Assembly (NCBI RefSeq): GCF_021117295.1
Contig: NZ_CP088247.1
Span: 2,743,001-2,807,000, forward strand
Length of the DNA: 64,000 bases
From: Methylorubrum sp. B1-46
Lineage (GTDB): Bacteria; Pseudomonadota; Alphaproteobacteria; Rhizobiales; Beijerinckiaceae
Reading direction: 5' to 3'
Part shown: one piece after another, positions 20,345 through 44,026 of the stretch
Layout of the letters: the number at the start of each line of letters is the position of its first letter
Position numbering within the stretch: position 1 is the first letter of the stretch
The notes under the pieces: generated by a model
Told to the model about the DNA's origin: nothing
The model's input: the letters and a program-made list of their open reading frames with translations, nothing else
Database searches by the model: none
Position numbers and translations under genes: made by a program

Positions 20345-21478
20345 ATGCAGGGCCGTACGATCGGATCGCCGCGTACTACCTCGATGCCTCGCAAGAGCGG
20401 GCGCTCCATCCCGTCCTCCGACGTCATCACCCTCAATGCCCGGACGGGACGCGATCACGGCAGCCGCACGGCGCTGGTCCGCTCCATCCTCTCGATGACC
20501 CTGCTCGCCGGTGGCCTGAGCGCGGTTCTGCTCAATGCCGGCACCGATCTCGGCCGGGCCGAGGCGTCGACCAAGGTCTCCGATCTGTCGATGCCGAAGC
20601 CGCGCCTGCAGATGGTGGTGCCGGAAAGCCCGGTCCCGTCCGTGCTGGCTGCCTCGGCGAGCTTCCACCCCGTGGGCGACCTCGACACCGAACTCGGCGC
20701 CAACACGGTCGACCGCGTCTCCTACGACTTCCTTCTCTCCCAGACCTCGACCGGCGACCCGAACGACATTCTCGAATTCGGCCCGATGAAGATCCGTCGC
20801 CACCTCGTGCAGACCATCGTCAAGGCGGCGCAGGCGGTCCAGACCGATCCGGTTCTGCTCATGGCGGTGGCCGACAAGGAATCGAGCTTCATCACCGCGG
20901 TCCAGGCCAAGACCTCCTCGGCCACCGGCCTCTTCCAGTTCATCGAGCGTACCTGGCTCGGCGTCATGCGCGATTTCGGACCCAAATACGGGTACGAAAA
21001 GGACGCCGCCCTGATCGTGCCGGACGCCAACGACAGGCCGTCGGTCCAGGATCAGTCCGAGCGCAGCCGCATCCTCGATCTGCGCCGCGATCCCTATCTC
21101 TCGGCCGTGATGGCCGGCGAGATGCTCAAGCGCGACGCCGCCCGCATCGCCCTGAAGATCGGCCGCGAACTCTCCCTCGGCGAAGTTTACCTCGCTCACT
21201 TCCTCGGCCCCGACGACGCGGAGAACTTCCTGTCCCAGGTCGTCGATAAGCCGACCGCCGCCGCCGCGACCCTGTTGCCGGGCCCGGCCCGCGCCAACCG
21301 CTCGATCTTCTTTGCCGGCACCACCGGACGCGGCCGCCACCGCAAGCCCGCGAGCCTCTCGGTTGCCCAGGTTCACCAGAAGTTCGAGGCCATGATGAGC
21401 ACCCGCGGCGATCGCTATCGCGACGTGCGCAGCGTGGCCGGCCTCGTCACCCTCGCCGATGCCGAGACGACTCAGTAG
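20345..21478 (+). CDS. Lytic transglycosylase, SLT domain
   Basis: A 377-residue protein with a non-cleaved-looking N-terminal membrane segment (about 45-68) and an SLT/Slt70-type domain from about 155. The catalytic Glu is Glu179 in ADKESSF, followed by ATGLFQFIERTWL, and the C-terminal part contains YLAHFLGPDDAENF as in Rhizobiales transglycosylases. It probably cleaves peptidoglycan glycan strands in the periplasm. ATG 20345 is used; ATG 20387 is an alternative. Confidence 0.85.
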   Translation: MQGRTIGSPRTTSMPRKSGRSIPSSDVITLNARTGRDHGSRTALVRSILSMTLLAGGLSAVLLNAGTDLGRAEASTKVSDLSMPKPRLQMVVPESPVPSVLAASASFHPVGDLDTELGANTVDRVSYDFLLSQTSTGDPNDILEFGPMKIRRHLVQTIVKAAQAVQTDPVLLMAVADKESSFITAVQAKTSSATGLFQFIERTWLGVMRDFGPKYGYEKDAALIVPDANDRPSVQDQSERSRILDLRRDPYLSAVMAGEMLKRDAARIALKIGRELSLGEVYLAHFLGPDDAENFLSQVVDKPTAAAATLLPGPARANRSIFFAGTTGRGRHRKPASLSVAQVHQKFEAMMSTRGDRYRDVRSVAGLVTLADAETTQ

Positions 21479-21648
21479 AGACGGAGCCGCGGCCGCCCGC
21501 CGCGCGGCGGGCCTGCGTCGGTGAAAATCTCCCTTCGACGCAACTGAGCGGCACCTGCCCGCTTTGTTGTGCTGTGCGGCGCCTCGGGCTCTCGCGTTCC
21601 GTGAGAGCTCCTTTGCCGCCCGGACGCGCGAGAGAGGATCGTTTCGCC

Positions 21649-22233
21649 TTGAACGACTCGTTTCGAGACCGATCGCATCGAGGCTTCTCGGATGATCCTC
21701 TTCTGCCGGGGATGAAACTCGATCAGATCGGCCAAGCCCTCGCCTCCTGCTACGACAACCTCGTGGCCGAGGGCCTCCCCGATCATCTCGCCGCACTGGT
21801 CCGGCGCGTCGATCTTGCCGAGCGGTCCCGGTCTGCCAAGGCCGAGCGTCCGGACGCTCCCATCGCTGTCGTGGTCGAGGACGAGCGCGATACCCGCGAA
21901 CTGGCCGAGAGCGTGCTCGAAGAGACCGAGATGCGGGTGATCGGCTGCGACAGCGCCGAGCAGGCCTTGGGGATCCTGCGCGAGCGGGGGGGCGAGGTCG
22001 CCCTGGTCTTCGCCGATATCCGCCTCGCCGGCGCCATGGACGGGCTTCAACTCGCCCGCGCCATCGCGACCCTCTGGCCGCGCACCCGGCTGGTCGTGAC
22101 GTCCGGTGTCGAGCCGGAGCCCGGCGTCTCGCTGCCGGAGGGGGCCGTCTTCATTCCCAAGCCGTGGCGCGCGCTCGACGTGCTGGTCGAGGCCGAGCGG
22201 GCCGCGCGCGACCCCTGGCCTCCGGTGAGCTGA
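21649..22233 (+). CDS. NepR-like segment fused to a response-regulator receiver
   Basis: A 194-residue protein. Residues ~26-55 (IGQALASCYDNLVAEG then LPDHLAALVRRVD) follow the NepR anti-sigma pattern IGxxLRxxYDxVVxEPxPDRFxxLLxxLD. Residues 72-187 are a receiver with acidic Glu77/Asp78, phospho-acceptor Asp123 (FADIRLAG), Thr151/Ser152 and Lys171 (IPKPW). There is no DNA-binding domain. Start taken as TTG 21649, which has AGAGAGGA ten bases upstream; ATG 21712 would keep both modules. I infer a phosphorylation-controlled partner in the EcfG/PhyR general stress response. See findings. Confidence 0.75.
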   Translation: MNDSFRDRSHRGFSDDPLLPGMKLDQIGQALASCYDNLVAEGLPDHLAALVRRVDLAERSRSAKAERPDAPIAVVVEDERDTRELAESVLEETEMRVIGCDSAEQALGILRERGGEVALVFADIRLAGAMDGLQLARAIATLWPRTRLVVTSGVEPEPGVSLPEGAVFIPKPWRALDVLVEAERAARDPWPPVS

Positions 22234-25244: not shown

Positions 25245-25370
25245 TAGCGCGGGGGTGACACTTTTTCCACCCCTGTGGGGGTGATTAAGGTTACCAGTTG
25301 ATAAACGTGTGTCGGCAGGTTTCAGTGTCCACGTCCGGCGGCAGTTAAGTTACACGGGAGTTGTGTGTTC

Positions 25371-27980
25371 ATGCCCCGATCGACCGTCGGCAGGGCTGTG
25401 AAGGGGCTTATGACCAGGGTTCGAATGTCGGACCACGCGGCGCAGGATCTGTCTCCCGAGGGCGATTCGGGTGTGCGCGCCGCTCTGGCGCGTTGGCGCG
25501 GTGACGCGTCGATGGCGCATCTTGTCCGCGAGGGCGGCCCGCTGCTGATTCTCGATGCGGCGGCGGAGCGGATTCTCCACGCCGACGGTGCGGCGCTCCC
25601 GTTGCGGGTCGGCATCGCCGATGCGAGCGGGGCCATTCTTCCGGCCCTGCGCTTGGCGGCGCAGATCGACCGCGCCGGCACCCTCGATACACGGCCCCGG
25701 ATGGTCCGCCTGCGATTCGATCCGCGGGGCGTGGCGGTTCCCGTTGTCGTTCTCGCTGCAAGGGCTGAGATCGAGCCGGGACATTCGGTTCTGCTCCTGG
25801 CTCCGATCGGGGCCCTTCCGACACTGCGGCCGTTCGAGGCTGCGCTGGCGAAGGTCGATCCGCAGTCCCAGATCCCGAGTGCCTCCGCGACGTCGCTTGA
25901 AGTCCCGATCCTCAAGCCGGGGGCAGAGCCGATTGCGCCAGTGGCCGAGGCGGCGGATCGTCCGGCCCGACTCGTCTGGCGTAGCGATGCCGAGGGCGTT
26001 TTGAACCATGTCTCGAGCGCCCATTCCGACTTGTCCGAAGTCCTGATCGGCCGATCCTGGACGACACTCGCCGCCGAGGGCGTGATCGCCGGCGAACGCG
26101 ACGGCGCGGCACTGATCGACGCTCTCTCGACACGCCGGACGTTCCGCGCCCTGCCGCTCGTCCTGCGTGGGCGCGCCTTCGAGCATGTCTTGGAGATCTC
26201 GGGCGCGCCCGCAGGTCGAGCGACAGGCGATTTCTCCGGTTTTTCCGGCTTCGCGATTCCCGGCGAGCGGCGTCCGCGCCCGGTCAAGGGTGGGGAGGTC
26301 GCGGGTGGGGAGCCGCTGCTCGACGATCACCAGGAGCCGGACGTCGTTGGCGAGCCGGAGGCGGATGCCAGCCTATCCGTCAACGAGCATGCTGCCTTCC
26401 GCGAGGTCGCGCGCATCCTCGGTCTGCGGTTCGCCCCCGACGAACTGGCCTCGGATGAAACGCCGGCCTCCGCGCGCGCCGAGGGCGCGGCGGTAAGCTC
26501 GGTGATGCCGTTCCCGACGCCGCCAGCGCGTCTGGCGGAGAACGAGGTTCGGGCCCGCGCGGCACTCGCGGAACTGCTCGAAAGCCTGCCCCTGGGGGTT
26601 TTGATCTATCGCGGCAGCGAGATGCTGTTCGCCAGCCGCGCGTTTCTCGATCTTGCCGGCTATCCGGACTTACCGGCCCTGCGTCAGGTCGGGCTCGCGC
26701 ACCTGTTCCGCGGCCTGCCGCCGAGGGAGCGCGAGATCGTCGGGCCGGTGCCCTTCGCCCGACCCGAGGGGGGTACGGTCGCGCTCCTCATCGATCGGGC
26801 CAGCCTCATCTGGGAGGGCGCGCCGGCCGAGATCTGCCTTGCCCGCGCGATGCCGGACGCGTTTGCGGCCCCGTCGCCCGCTGTTCCGCCCAACGCCGCC
26901 CGTTTGCGTGCGGAGAAGGTGTTGGACAGCCTTGAAGAGGGCGTCGTCACCCTCGATGCCGAGGGGCGGGTCGTCGGCCTGAATCCGAGTGCGGCCGAAC
27001 TCGTCCACGCCCATCCGAAGGAGGTCGTGGGCGGGCGCTTCGCCGACCTGTTCGCGCCCGAGAGCCTGCCGGCCCTCGAGACGGCGGTCACGGTGTCCCG
27101 CCGCGCGGGCGCGAGCGAGATCTACGGGGTCACGCCGCGGACGGGGGCGGCGGCCCTGCGGCTGCGCATCGCCCGGTTGCTGGGCGAGGACGCGCCGGGC
27201 TACTGCGCCAGCCTGCGCGAGATTCGAGACGAGGAGCCGACGCCTCCGGTCGCGACCGAGCCCGCGCACCGGGACGAGCCGGAGGTGGAAGCGGCCTGGA
27301 AGGCCAATGCGCTCGCGCGGGTCAGCCGCGAGATCCGCCCCTCGCTCAACGCGATCCTCAGCCTCACCGACATGATGCTCTCAGACCGCTTCGATCGTGC
27401 GGATGCCGAGCGTCTGGAGGCTTACCTGCGCGAGGTGCGTCTCTCCGGTGGTCGTATCGCCGGCTTGATCGACGACCTGCGCGACCTCGCCGAGATCCAG
27501 GCCGGCCGCGGCAAACTCACCTTCACCGATCTCGCTCTCAACGATCTCGTGTCCTCCTGCATCGCCGCGCAGCAGGCGAGGGCGGCGCGGGACCGTATCG
27601 TCCTGCGGACCAGCCTCGCTCCCGATCTGCCGGCCATGAGGGCGGACGAACGCTCGATCCGGCAGGCGGCGTTGACCGTGCTTGAGAACGCCATCCGCGT
27701 CTCCGAGGCCGGCGGTCAGGTGATCATCTCGACCACGCTCGCCGAGCGGGGAGAAATCGCCTTGCGCGTGCGCGACACCGGCACCGGTATGACCGAGGAA
27801 GAACTGACGAATGCCCTCGAACCGTTCCGGGCCGATGTCGGTTCCGATGGTGAGGGTGAGGAGAAGGGGTTCGGATTGACGCTGACCAAGGCGTTGGTGG
27901 AGGTCAATCGCGGTCGCTTCCGCATCACCAGCCGCAAGGACGAGGGCACCCTCGTCGAGATGCTGTTTCCCGCCGCCTGA
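25371..27980 (+). CDS. PAS-domain sensor histidine-kinase-like protein lacking the phospho-acceptor His
   Basis: An 869-residue soluble protein with no membrane segment. The N-terminal ~390 residues are of unknown fold. Two PAS domains follow (about 395-500, starting AELLESLPLGVLIY, and about 511-620, LDSLEEGVVTLD), then a HisKA-like dimerisation helix and a HATPase_c domain. The H-box reads VSREIRPSLNAI: Arg653 (CGC, 27327-27329) replaces the phospho-acceptor His and RPS replaces RTP. The ATP domain keeps Asn773 (VLENAI), DTGTGM (Asp802) and KGFGLTL. ATG 25371 has GGGAG ten bases upstream. Divergent from the phasin gene. It may signal without autophosphorylation. See findings. Confidence 0.82.
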   Translation: MPRSTVGRAVKGLMTRVRMSDHAAQDLSPEGDSGVRAALARWRGDASMAHLVREGGPLLILDAAAERILHADGAALPLRVGIADASGAILPALRLAAQIDRAGTLDTRPRMVRLRFDPRGVAVPVVVLAARAEIEPGHSVLLLAPIGALPTLRPFEAALAKVDPQSQIPSASATSLEVPILKPGAEPIAPVAEAADRPARLVWRSDAEGVLNHVSSAHSDLSEVLIGRSWTTLAAEGVIAGERDGAALIDALSTRRTFRALPLVLRGRAFEHVLEISGAPAGRATGDFSGFSGFAIPGERRPRPVKGGEVAGGEPLLDDHQEPDVVGEPEADASLSVNEHAAFREVARILGLRFAPDELASDETPASARAEGAAVSSVMPFPTPPARLAENEVRARAALAELLESLPLGVLIYRGSEMLFASRAFLDLAGYPDLPALRQVGLAHLFRGLPPREREIVGPVPFARPEGGTVALLIDRASLIWEGAPAEICLARAMPDAFAAPSPAVPPNAARLRAEKVLDSLEEGVVTLDAEGRVVGLNPSAAELVHAHPKEVVGGRFADLFAPESLPALETAVTVSRRAGASEIYGVTPRTGAAALRLRIARLLGEDAPGYCASLREIRDEEPTPPVATEPAHRDEPEVEAAWKANALARVSREIRPSLNAILSLTDMMLSDRFDRADAERLEAYLREVRLSGGRIAGLIDDLRDLAEIQAGRGKLTFTDLALNDLVSSCIAAQQARAARDRIVLRTSLAPDLPAMRADERSIRQAALTVLENAIRVSEAGGQVIISTTLAERGEIALRVRDTGTGMTEEELTNALEPFRADVGSDGEGEEKGFGLTLTKALVEVNRGRFRITSRKDEGTLVEMLFPAA

Positions 27981-42177: not shown

Positions 42178-42471
42178 ATGAGCGGCCCCGAAACCACACC
42201 CGAAAAGCTTCCCGATAGCTCGCCGCTGCCGGAATCCGTTCGCGATCACCTCGGCCACGAGCTACGTGGTGTGCTGACCGAGACGACTCCCGGACCGCGA
42301 TTTCTTGGCGACGAACCGTCGGTGCCGGAGAAGTTCGAGCCGCAGATCCGCCGCCTCGAGACGCGGCTGAAGACGCACGAGGAGGGCACGGACGCCGTCG
42401 AGCAGGCGCTCGACCGAATTCTCGATGCCTTCGGCGTCGCTCCTGACGAGGATGCGGGCAGAGGGAAGTAG
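42178..42471 (+). CDS. Small hydrophilic protein, unknown function
   Basis: A 97-residue charged protein with a proline-rich N-terminus and a likely coiled-coil or helical C-terminal half (PQIRRLETRLKTHEEGTDAV then EQALDRILDAFG). AGGA precedes ATG 42178. It converges on mscL with a 5-bp gap. I do not recognise a family. Confidence 0.6.
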   Translation: MSGPETTPEKLPDSSPLPESVRDHLGHELRGVLTETTPGPRFLGDEPSVPEKFEPQIRRLETRLKTHEEGTDAVEQALDRILDAFGVAPDEDAGRGK

Positions 42472-42902: not shown

Positions 42903-43276
42903 CCGGGCCTCCCGCGACGGCGTCTCGAACGGAGTGCGCCGCCTGCGAAGCTATGCCGGAGGCGGCGGATGCCAAGGGGATGCTGTCCGTGTTCTCCGCA
43001 TCCATTCGGCTTTAACGACCCTCCCTGGATGGCTCCTTACCGCCCGTCGCGGGCCACGCATCGTGCCGATGCCGGCAGGCCGGTGCGGCTGAGCTGAAAG
43101 TAGATCCAGAAGAGGCTCAAGCTTCGGCTTCGAATTTTGCCGAACCCAGCAATTTTCTAGAAAAGATCAGAAACAAACCCGCTCGTTTTGCATGCAATCG
43201 AGCTGGCGGCAGCGCACGGATAGGCGCCGTTGTGGCGCCGTTTAGGATTAGTTCATTTTTAAATTGCTACCGAGCA
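42903..43276. other. Divergent intergenic region, mscL / sigma factor
   Basis: 374 bp with no gene. The right half is AT-richer. GGCGCCGTT occurs twice, at 43223-43231 and 43234-43242, 35-54 bp before the sigma-factor ATG. No GGAAC-type EcfG promoter was found in front of the sigma gene. Confidence 0.5.
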
Positions 43277-44026
43277 ATGGCTACTCCCAATGTTCCCGCC
43301 TTTGCCGAGGTACCGCTCTGGATGCCTGACGAACCGCTTCACCACACATTGCCGAAAGGTCCCGGCTCAATCCAGGGTGAAACGGCAAACGCTGTCGCGG
43401 GGCACCTGACCTTTGCCCTGCGCGACTACTTCGATCTTGCGAGTCAGGCGCCCCTTCCGGGGCGGCTCGCCGAGCTTCTGCAGCAGTTCGAGACTGCGCT
43501 CACGGCGCATGGCGGAGAGGTGGAGGCCGTCTTCCGGGACGATCTCGTGAAGGCGCTGCCGATGCTGCGCACCTTTGCGATCTCGCTCACCGCTAACCCA
43601 ACTCGGGCCGACGACCTCGTGCAGGAGACCATGGTCAAGGCCTGGGCGAATCGGGAGCGGTTCACGCCGGGCACGAACTTCACGGCGTGGTTGTTCACCA
43701 TCTTGCGCAACCAGTTCTACACCGAGATCCGCAAAGGGCGCCGCGAGGTGGAAGATGCCGATGGCGTCCATGCCGGCACGCTCACCGCGCATCCCGATCA
43801 GGAGCACGCGGCGGGGCTGCGGATGGTGATGAACCTGATCGGCACGCTGCCGCTGCCGCAGCGGCAGGCACTCCTGCTCGTCGGCGCCGAGGGCTTCACC
43901 TACGAGGAGGCGGCCGAACGGCTCGGCTGTCAGGTCGGCACGGTGAAGAGCCGTGTCAGCCGCGCCCGTGCCTTCCTGATCGATTCCTTCGACGGGCTGC
44001 CGGACGGGTTGGCGGCGCGGGCCTGA
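43277..44026 (+). CDS. EcfG-type (ECF15) sigma factor with NepR-like N-terminal extension
   Basis: A 249-residue sigma factor. Sigma-2 (about 86-150) holds RADDLVQETMVKAW and NFTAWLFTILRNQFY; sigma-4 (about 180-236) holds LPLPQRQALLLVGAEGF, YEEAAERLGC and GTVKSRVSRAR. These fit the general-stress EcfG group. The extra ~80 residues at the N-terminus contain LRDYFDLASQAPLPGRLAELL (residues 48-68), which follows the NepR pattern (L-R-x-x-Y ... P-x-P-x-R-x-x-x-L-L). ATG 43277 is used; a GTG at 43232 is possible, and neither has a clear ribosome site. See findings. Confidence 0.85.
   Translation: MATPNVPAFAEVPLWMPDEPLHHTLPKGPGSIQGETANAVAGHLTFALRDYFDLASQAPLPGRLAELLQQFETALTAHGGEVEAVFRDDLVKALPMLRTFAISLTANPTRADDLVQETMVKAWANRERFTPGTNFTAWLFTILRNQFYTEIRKGRREVEDADGVHAGTLTAHPDQEHAAGLRMVMNLIGTLPLPQRQALLLVGAEGFTYEEAAERLGCQVGTVKSRVSRARAFLIDSFDGLPDGLAARA

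Follow-up and report, generated by a model that had tools for sequence, protein, structure and literature searches.

Does a protein that joins a NepR-like segment to a receiver domain take part in the PhyR/NepR/EcfG switch of the general stress response, and which of the partners in this switch does it address? The question is raised by a gene in the window, by which we mean the whole 64,000-nucleotide stretch of Methylorubrum sp. B1-46 DNA that was analysed. The earlier note on this DNA had described the gene product as a NepR-like segment followed by a complete receiver with Asp123 and Lys171 and with no output domain. This architecture was confirmed, the coordinates and the positions of both residues being correct and no output domain being found with Pfam. 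The features referred to in the text are:

20345..21478, + strand: gene for an SLT-domain (lytic transglycosylase-like) protein, the upstream neighbour and a syntenic marker of the locus
21630..21638, + strand: Shine-Dalgarno-like gagagagga, 10 nt 5' of the TTG, a putative assignment from sequence and conservation
21649..22233, + strand: coding sequence for the fusion protein of 194 aa, from the TTG start through the stop codon
21718..21810, + strand: NepR-like segment, residues 24-54 (LDQIGQALASCYDNLVAEGLPDHLAALVRRV), as indicated by Pfam PF18557, relatives, profile-profile comparison and a reciprocal genome search
21718..21771, + strand: predicted helix 1, residues 24-41 (AlphaFold2, block pLDDT about 63-71)
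21781..21840, + strand: predicted helix 2, residues 45-64 (AlphaFold2, block pLDDT about 55-63), beginning right after the invariant Pro44
21811..21858, + strand: fast-evolving linker, residues 55-70 (cross-lineage consensus identity 1/16; dN/dS 0.32 against 0.02 in the NepR-like segment)
21859..22209, + strand: receiver domain, residues 71-187
22015..22017, + strand: phospho-acceptor Asp123, invariant in the catalytic sets and Gly in 14/14 sequences of the dead-receiver lineage described below
22159..22161, + strand: conserved Lys171, invariant in the same catalytic sets and deleted in 14/14 sequences of the dead-receiver lineage

The open reading frame from the TTG at 21649 to 22233 on the + strand is present in the sequence and its product has 194 aa. 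Both the GA-rich Shine-Dalgarno-like stretch and the TTG are conserved in the closest Methylorubrum relatives. Translation could alternatively start at a GTG further upstream (21574) or at an ATG inside the frame (21712), the latter giving a protein of 173 aa that matches several database entries.

Response_reg was matched at residues 74-156 of the window protein with 45.1 bits, above the Pfam cut-off of 30.2, so that the receiver assignment of the earlier note held in the profile search. Besides Response_reg and NepR no family was listed by Pfam at E≤10, and the sigma-like domain of PhyR (PF22029/PF22233) is thus not among the matches. PhyR also unites a partner-switch module and a receiver in one protein, but its receiver is joined to the sigma mimic, which is the ligand of NepR, whereas the window receiver is joined to the NepR side. 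The features of single-domain response regulators, namely, the acidic pair, the phospho-accepting Asp, the Thr/Ser, the Lys and the lack of an output domain, are all found in the window receiver. D123 and K171 are invariant in 118/118 aligned proteins, the window protein included (3 of 121 were omitted before aligning), in 48/48 coding sequences (47 named loci and the window) and in 30/30 loci of genus genomes; T151-S152-G153 is likewise invariant in the 118 aligned proteins. The best NCBIfam match of the window protein is to receivers of hybrid kinases and not to FATGUY-like receivers (MrrA, SdrG). MrrA, SdrG, Mext_0407, LovR and CstR resemble the window receiver in having no output domain, and several of them act in stress responses, but the portions of their descriptions that are accessible contain no NepR-like segment. 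MrrA and SdrG also differ in carrying the PFxFATG motif (accessible part of PMC5964349); this motif, in full PFxFATG(G/Y), is absent from the window receiver, which has LVVTSG instead. CstR (Mext_1965) was considered as a possible identity of the window gene and was rejected by comparison of lengths, since the accessible part of PMC13344952 gives a 381-nt open reading frame and a 54-codon extension as against 173 or 194 aa. In the predicted receiver (AlphaFold2) strands 4 and 5 are connected only by a loop (residues 153-166), and the alpha4 helix is missing. A fold comparison with residues 69-194 only yielded no NepR structure among the best 50 matches listed.

Comparisons of several kinds indicate that the N-terminal segment is very probably related to NepR. 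The NepR family (PF18557) was matched at residues 25-55 with 20.0 bits (E 5e-4), and the whole-protein cut-off of 25.7 bits is not reached by the window protein. The match is nevertheless above background, as the reading of the earlier note required. Taken alone this match is sub-threshold and suggestive, and it becomes convincing because of the matches of the relatives: 66 of 68 aligned members (67 of the 120 relatives listed from databases, plus the window protein) match Pfam NepR at E≤0.01, the best at 2.7e-6, and a precomputed PF18557 assignment exists for 18 of these 120. When residues 16-60 of the 68 sequences were compared by hhalign with 26 canonical NepRs of the genus (30 loci were tried and 4 were dropped for a regular-expression mismatch), the probability was 92.9 and the score 32.4, a score reached by 0/200 column-shuffled controls (best 24.0). 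A profile made of 29 segments, 23 of the catalytic form and 6 of the dead form, when searched against the bacterium's own genome finds the segment itself and then nepR beside phyR (E 0.015). The Pfam NepR model gave seven matches at E≤10 in the whole of that genome, among which the window segment ranks fourth (E 5.4e-4). The three above it are nepR, one of the EcfG paralogues and a small NepR-like protein; below it come the EcfG of the window, a further small NepR-like protein and one weak last match.

The predicted structure and the conserved positions point the same way. AlphaFold2 places helices at residues 24-41 and 45-64 with moderate confidence (about 55-71), parted by Pro44, which is invariant in 118/118 aligned proteins. 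We take these helices to be the counterparts of alpha1 and alpha2 of NepR, respectively. The segment shares with NepR the two-helix core IG..L...YD.(V/L)....P(D/E).(F/L)..L(I/V/L)..(L/V), with its conserved hydrophobic residues, Gly, Tyr-Asp and Pro, and the core positions I/L27, G28, L31, Y35, D36, L38, P44, L47 and L50 are kept in 48/48 and 13/13 coding sequences. On the other hand, it differs from the canonical NepRs of the genus at three typical residues, in that the Arg after LR is replaced by Ala, the first Pro of P-x-P by Gly and the Phe of PDRF by Leu, and its partner may therefore differ. That the helices are unrelated to NepR, resemble it by convergence and serve dimerisation or autoinhibition of the receiver would be in keeping with the sub-threshold Pfam score of the window protein, with a PDB search by the segment profile in which two NepR chains (E 0.32 and 0.57) come below ATP-citrate synthase rows, all with E>0.03, and with the absence of the NCBIfam NepR model among the best 25 of the 36 families listed for the window protein. 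We consider convergence very improbable, however, because NepR is matched better by relatives from the dead-receiver lineage (best E 4.3e-7) and by P0124 of Microvirga ossetica (26.3 bits, above the cut-off), and because the reciprocal genome search returns nepR and no shuffled control reaches the profile score.

Nearly the whole genus retains the architecture, in most cases at a single syntenic locus. A close orthologue, defined as one aligned from residue 17 or earlier with at least 184 bits, is present in 90 of 111 genus genomes. The motif LDxIG..LA..YD occurs in 47/47 named Methylobacterium and Methylorubrum loci; the N-terminal motif accompanies the receiver in these orthologues, which is what the earlier note's reading demanded. 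The SLT-domain gene is immediately upstream in all 47 of these loci, and the conserved neighbours of the fusion gene are the SLT, LDT and phasin genes. Thirteen of the 21 genomes without a close orthologue have a divergent one directly after the same SLT gene, and a fourteenth divergent orthologue, found by profile search, is about 8 kb from the SLT gene on the same contig. Neither form was found in 7 of the 111 genomes, one of which is only 70% complete, and 4 of these 7 have a more distant paralogue instead. Since the 94 genomes matched by the profile have one match each, the catalytic and the dead form were not found together. Among the matches listed for 397 genomes of the order, all those from outside the genus start no earlier than position 43 of the profile, leaving the NepR-like segment largely or wholly uncovered.

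Among closely related proteins of the catalytic form, the NepR-like segment is under stronger purifying selection than the receiver. For the window gene and eight close named relatives dN/dS is 0.022 in the segment, 0.095 in the receiver and 0.324 in the linker, and for all 48 coding sequences it is 0.155, 0.275 and 0.915, respectively; these ratios are rough because synonymous change is extensive, with proportions of 0.40 to 0.58 for the close set and for the 48 coding sequences.

We think it likely that the protein acts in the PhyR/NepR/EcfG switch. As to its partner, the main text of PMC4814048 reports that M. extorquens has six EcfG paralogues, two of which, EcfG1 and EcfG5, bound NepR in two-hybrid experiments, and that of three NepR homologues of strain AM1, META1p1275, META2p0735 and META1p2700, two co-precipitated PhyR and none bound any EcfG in the two-hybrid. 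One of these paralogues raised methylglyoxal sensitivity on overexpression, and the two that bound PhyR were proposed to be negative regulators or decoys. All three are akin to the window protein as NepR homologues and differ from it in that no receiver is mentioned for them in that main text. META2p0735 was not found in the plasmid collection. Since the published paralogues bound PhyR but no sigma factor, a decoy or competitor for PhyR is likelier than an anti-sigma factor. By analogy, we tentatively favour the reading that the window protein is a receiver-tethered NepR mimic that acts as a PhyR decoy; the chances that PhyR is its main partner seem to us a little short of even. The two-helix module would have come from NepR, or from a once separate adjacent NepR-like gene, and would have been fused before a single-domain receiver. 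The segment would bind the sigma-like domain of PhyR in competition with NepR, and NepR, with PhyR so occupied, would be free to hold sigma-EcfG. The protein would then be a brake with an anti-anti-anti-sigma role.

A true anti-sigma factor, directed at an EcfG paralogue outside NepR control and gated in cis by the receiver for sigma binding, would suit the EcfG paralogues beyond the two bound by NepR; for these remaining proteins, notably EcfG2, control by PhyR is expected and the mechanism is still to be identified (main text of PMC4814048). An EcfG-type sigma gene also lies in the same window (43232-44026). We nevertheless regard this as rather unlikely. Not only did none of the three NepR homologues bind an EcfG, but the EcfG proteins of Methylobacteriaceae already bear a NepR-like N-terminal extension of their own, and only a truncated sigma factor bound NepR in the M. 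extorquens two-hybrid (main text of PMC4814048). Moreover, the window's EcfG is 21 kb distant and was found at none of the 47 named loci, for which up to 10 kb was covered on each side. The extension of sigma-EcfG is similar to the window segment in being a NepR-like graft on the N terminus of another protein in the same family, but it is joined to a sigma factor and the window segment to a receiver.

An EcfG-type promoter was found at both phyR and nepR, and none was found 5' of the window gene. The pattern, strict or loose, is present in 2 of 35 sequences examined, a survey that omitted 13 of the 47 named loci because they were missed by the motif search; it is present at 1/30 genus loci (with a spacing of 18, and identical in sequence to one of the two) and in 0/13 of the dead lineage. 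An EcfG-type promoter for the fusion gene was therefore rejected and the few matches were put down to chance. With none at the window gene and few in its relatives, there is no clear sign that the gene belongs to the autoregulated stress regulon, and the level of the fusion protein is probably not set by the stress response itself. Canonical nepR is small, stands alone near phyR or ecfG and has an EcfG promoter; the window segment, unlike NepR, is fused to a receiver and is not beside phyR or ecfG. META2p0735, which is EcfG-induced according to the main text of PMC4814048, differs from the window gene with respect to the promoter as well.

The promoter is also relevant to whether the window gene could be MexAM1_META1p2700, which bound neither PhyR nor a sigma factor, in which case its NepR-like part would no longer be in the switch. 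For META1p2700 of AM1 neither PhyR co-precipitation, nor EcfG interaction, nor an overexpression phenotype is reported in the main text of PMC4814048, and if the two genes are the same, these negative results for PhyR and sigma binding speak against the decoy model. The chromosome position of the window gene, 2.76 of 5.39 Mb, would roughly fit gene number 2700, going by position only. The identity is improbable, though, since META1p2700 has a putative EcfG-type promoter, as against none found at the window gene and few in its relatives, and since the words 'receiver' and 'fused' are absent from the main text of PMC4814048. With META1p2700 as a possible exception, the remark in the earlier note that no such protein was known to have been described agrees with the open-access literature, in whose accessible text, including that of the reviews PMC8999054 and PMC8103513, no NepR-receiver fusion was found; subscription papers were mostly outside the scope of this survey.

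Fourteen of the 111 genus genomes have a second form of the protein, in which the NepR-like segment is kept and the receiver is without D123, K171 and T151. In all 14 sequences D123 and E77 are replaced by Gly, T151 by Ala or Val, and K171 is deleted, and P172 and W173 are also deleted in the 13 sequences aligned first. Response_reg is not listed by Pfam at E≤10 for any of 13 dead-form proteins, and 13/13 of them match NepR at E≤0.01, the best at 4.3e-7. The SLT gene is directly before the dead-form gene in 13/14 genomes, and in six of the 14 stretches the LDT gene comes after it in 5 and the phasin and kinase genes in 3. Because of this synteny and a similarity of 34-41% to the catalytic form over the full length, the two forms are regarded as orthologues. 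Consensus identity between them is 18/31 in the segment, 55/117 in the receiver and 1/16 in the linker. The segment of the dead lineage is hardly more constrained than its receiver (dN/dS 0.253 and 0.272 in 13 sequences, with 0.619 in the linker), and since both values are close together and below that of the linker, the dead receiver is still constrained, perhaps for structural reasons.

These genomes bear on the view that the NepR-like segment is a docking handle that takes the receiver to PhyR, where the receiver would serve as a sink or a source of phosphate. In vitro, NepR is a strong enhancer of the phosphorylation of PhyR, and two single-domain receivers, MrrA and SdrG, join the phosphate flow of the general stress response (accessible part of PMC5964349); such a role would also agree with the catalytic residues being intact in 48/48 coding sequences. 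It is quite unlikely, however, because the protein persists in 14/111 genomes although its receiver there has no phospho-acceptor, and because the window receiver reads LVVTSG and does not have the PFxFATG motif of MrrA and SdrG. If the protein is a PhyR decoy, as we prefer, phosphorylation of Asp123 would in the catalytic lineage alter the accessibility of the helices, and in the dead-receiver lineage the decoy would be constitutive. Whether Asp123 gates the protein in the catalytic lineage appears to us evenly balanced. Since a phosphorylation-dead lineage keeps the segment, gating is not universal and is dispensable in that lineage, which thus provides a natural control for whether phosphorylation matters, a question that can be tested by simple genetics.

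Outside the genus, the most similar receivers in the plasmid collection belong to a single strain of Microvirga ossetica, where they lie on two plasmids; identity over the receiver is 54% and 52%. On NZ_CP016619 there is a 20-nt overlap between the receiver gene and a 65-aa gene whose product contains LEQPVPEALAAILRKTE and scores 14.0 bits with NepR and 16.4 bits with DUF6825, both under the cut-off. On NZ_CP016620 a 63-aa gene is 138 nt upstream of an N-terminally short related receiver, and its product (P0124) passes the NepR cut-off with 26.3 bits. Judged from sequence, this arrangement, found in one strain on two plasmids, fits a state that precedes a fusion or that follows a fission. A receiver of the split pair was found at E≤1e-20 in only 2 of 67 genomes of a sister genus in the family, presumed to be Microvirga. 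The receiver tree supports the A+B lineage with 0.82, and Microvirga with NRR2 also with 0.82, but a clade of all of them has no support (0.0). NRR2 is a second family of paralogues, found in part of the Methylobacterium genomes (34 proteins of about 190 aa; L142-L147 and A4) whose receiver retains the phospho-acceptor Asp and whose N-terminal stretch, G(V/I)A.GL...LP(D/E)RL.ELV.LL, is weakly NepR-like; 4 of the 34 match the NepR model at E≤1, the best at 0.012, and the family is present in four genomes without the main form.

Still more tentatively, Methylobacterium may possess an inverted second kind of PhyR, a receiver that exposes a NepR mimic and would occupy PhyR or EcfG paralogues as a phosphorylation-controlled counter-switch. 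Its evolutionary series might have run from separate neighbouring genes, as in Microvirga, through the fusion with an active receiver in most Methylobacterium to the fusion with a dead receiver as a constitutive decoy. The NepR-receiver fusion in Methylobacterium may thus represent a point of control in the general stress response of bacteria that has so far gone unrecognised, and, being near-universal and strongly conserved, it is a direct candidate for the missing link.

Other genes of the window and of the genome were examined for kinship with the switch. A PAS-containing histidine kinase (25365-27980, + strand) has the H-box VSREIRPSLN, with Arg at the position of the phospho-accepting His; among 36 aligned places in relatives, Arg occurs 19 times, His 15 times, and Gln and Asp once each. 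With Arg in 19/36 it was rejected as the cognate kinase and is no convincing partner, and its sequence suggests that it has turned into a pseudokinase in Methylorubrum. The EcfG-type sigma factor of the window (43232-44026, + strand) has a weak NepR-like N-terminal stretch at residues 63-87 (12.6 bits, E 0.11), which is probably the extension described for Methylobacteriaceae in the main text of PMC4814048. Near it, a small open reading frame (42178-42471) that looked NepR-like by eye was discarded, having no Pfam NepR match at E≤10. Two small NepR-like proteins are encoded elsewhere in the genome, one of 122 aa with 24.9 bits (L003, 1258-1626, + strand) and one of 100 aa with 12.2 bits (L006, 1474-1776, - strand). 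No strict EcfG-type promoter was found before either gene in the stretch examined, and the two proteins are perhaps related to the published NepR paralogues of M. extorquens.
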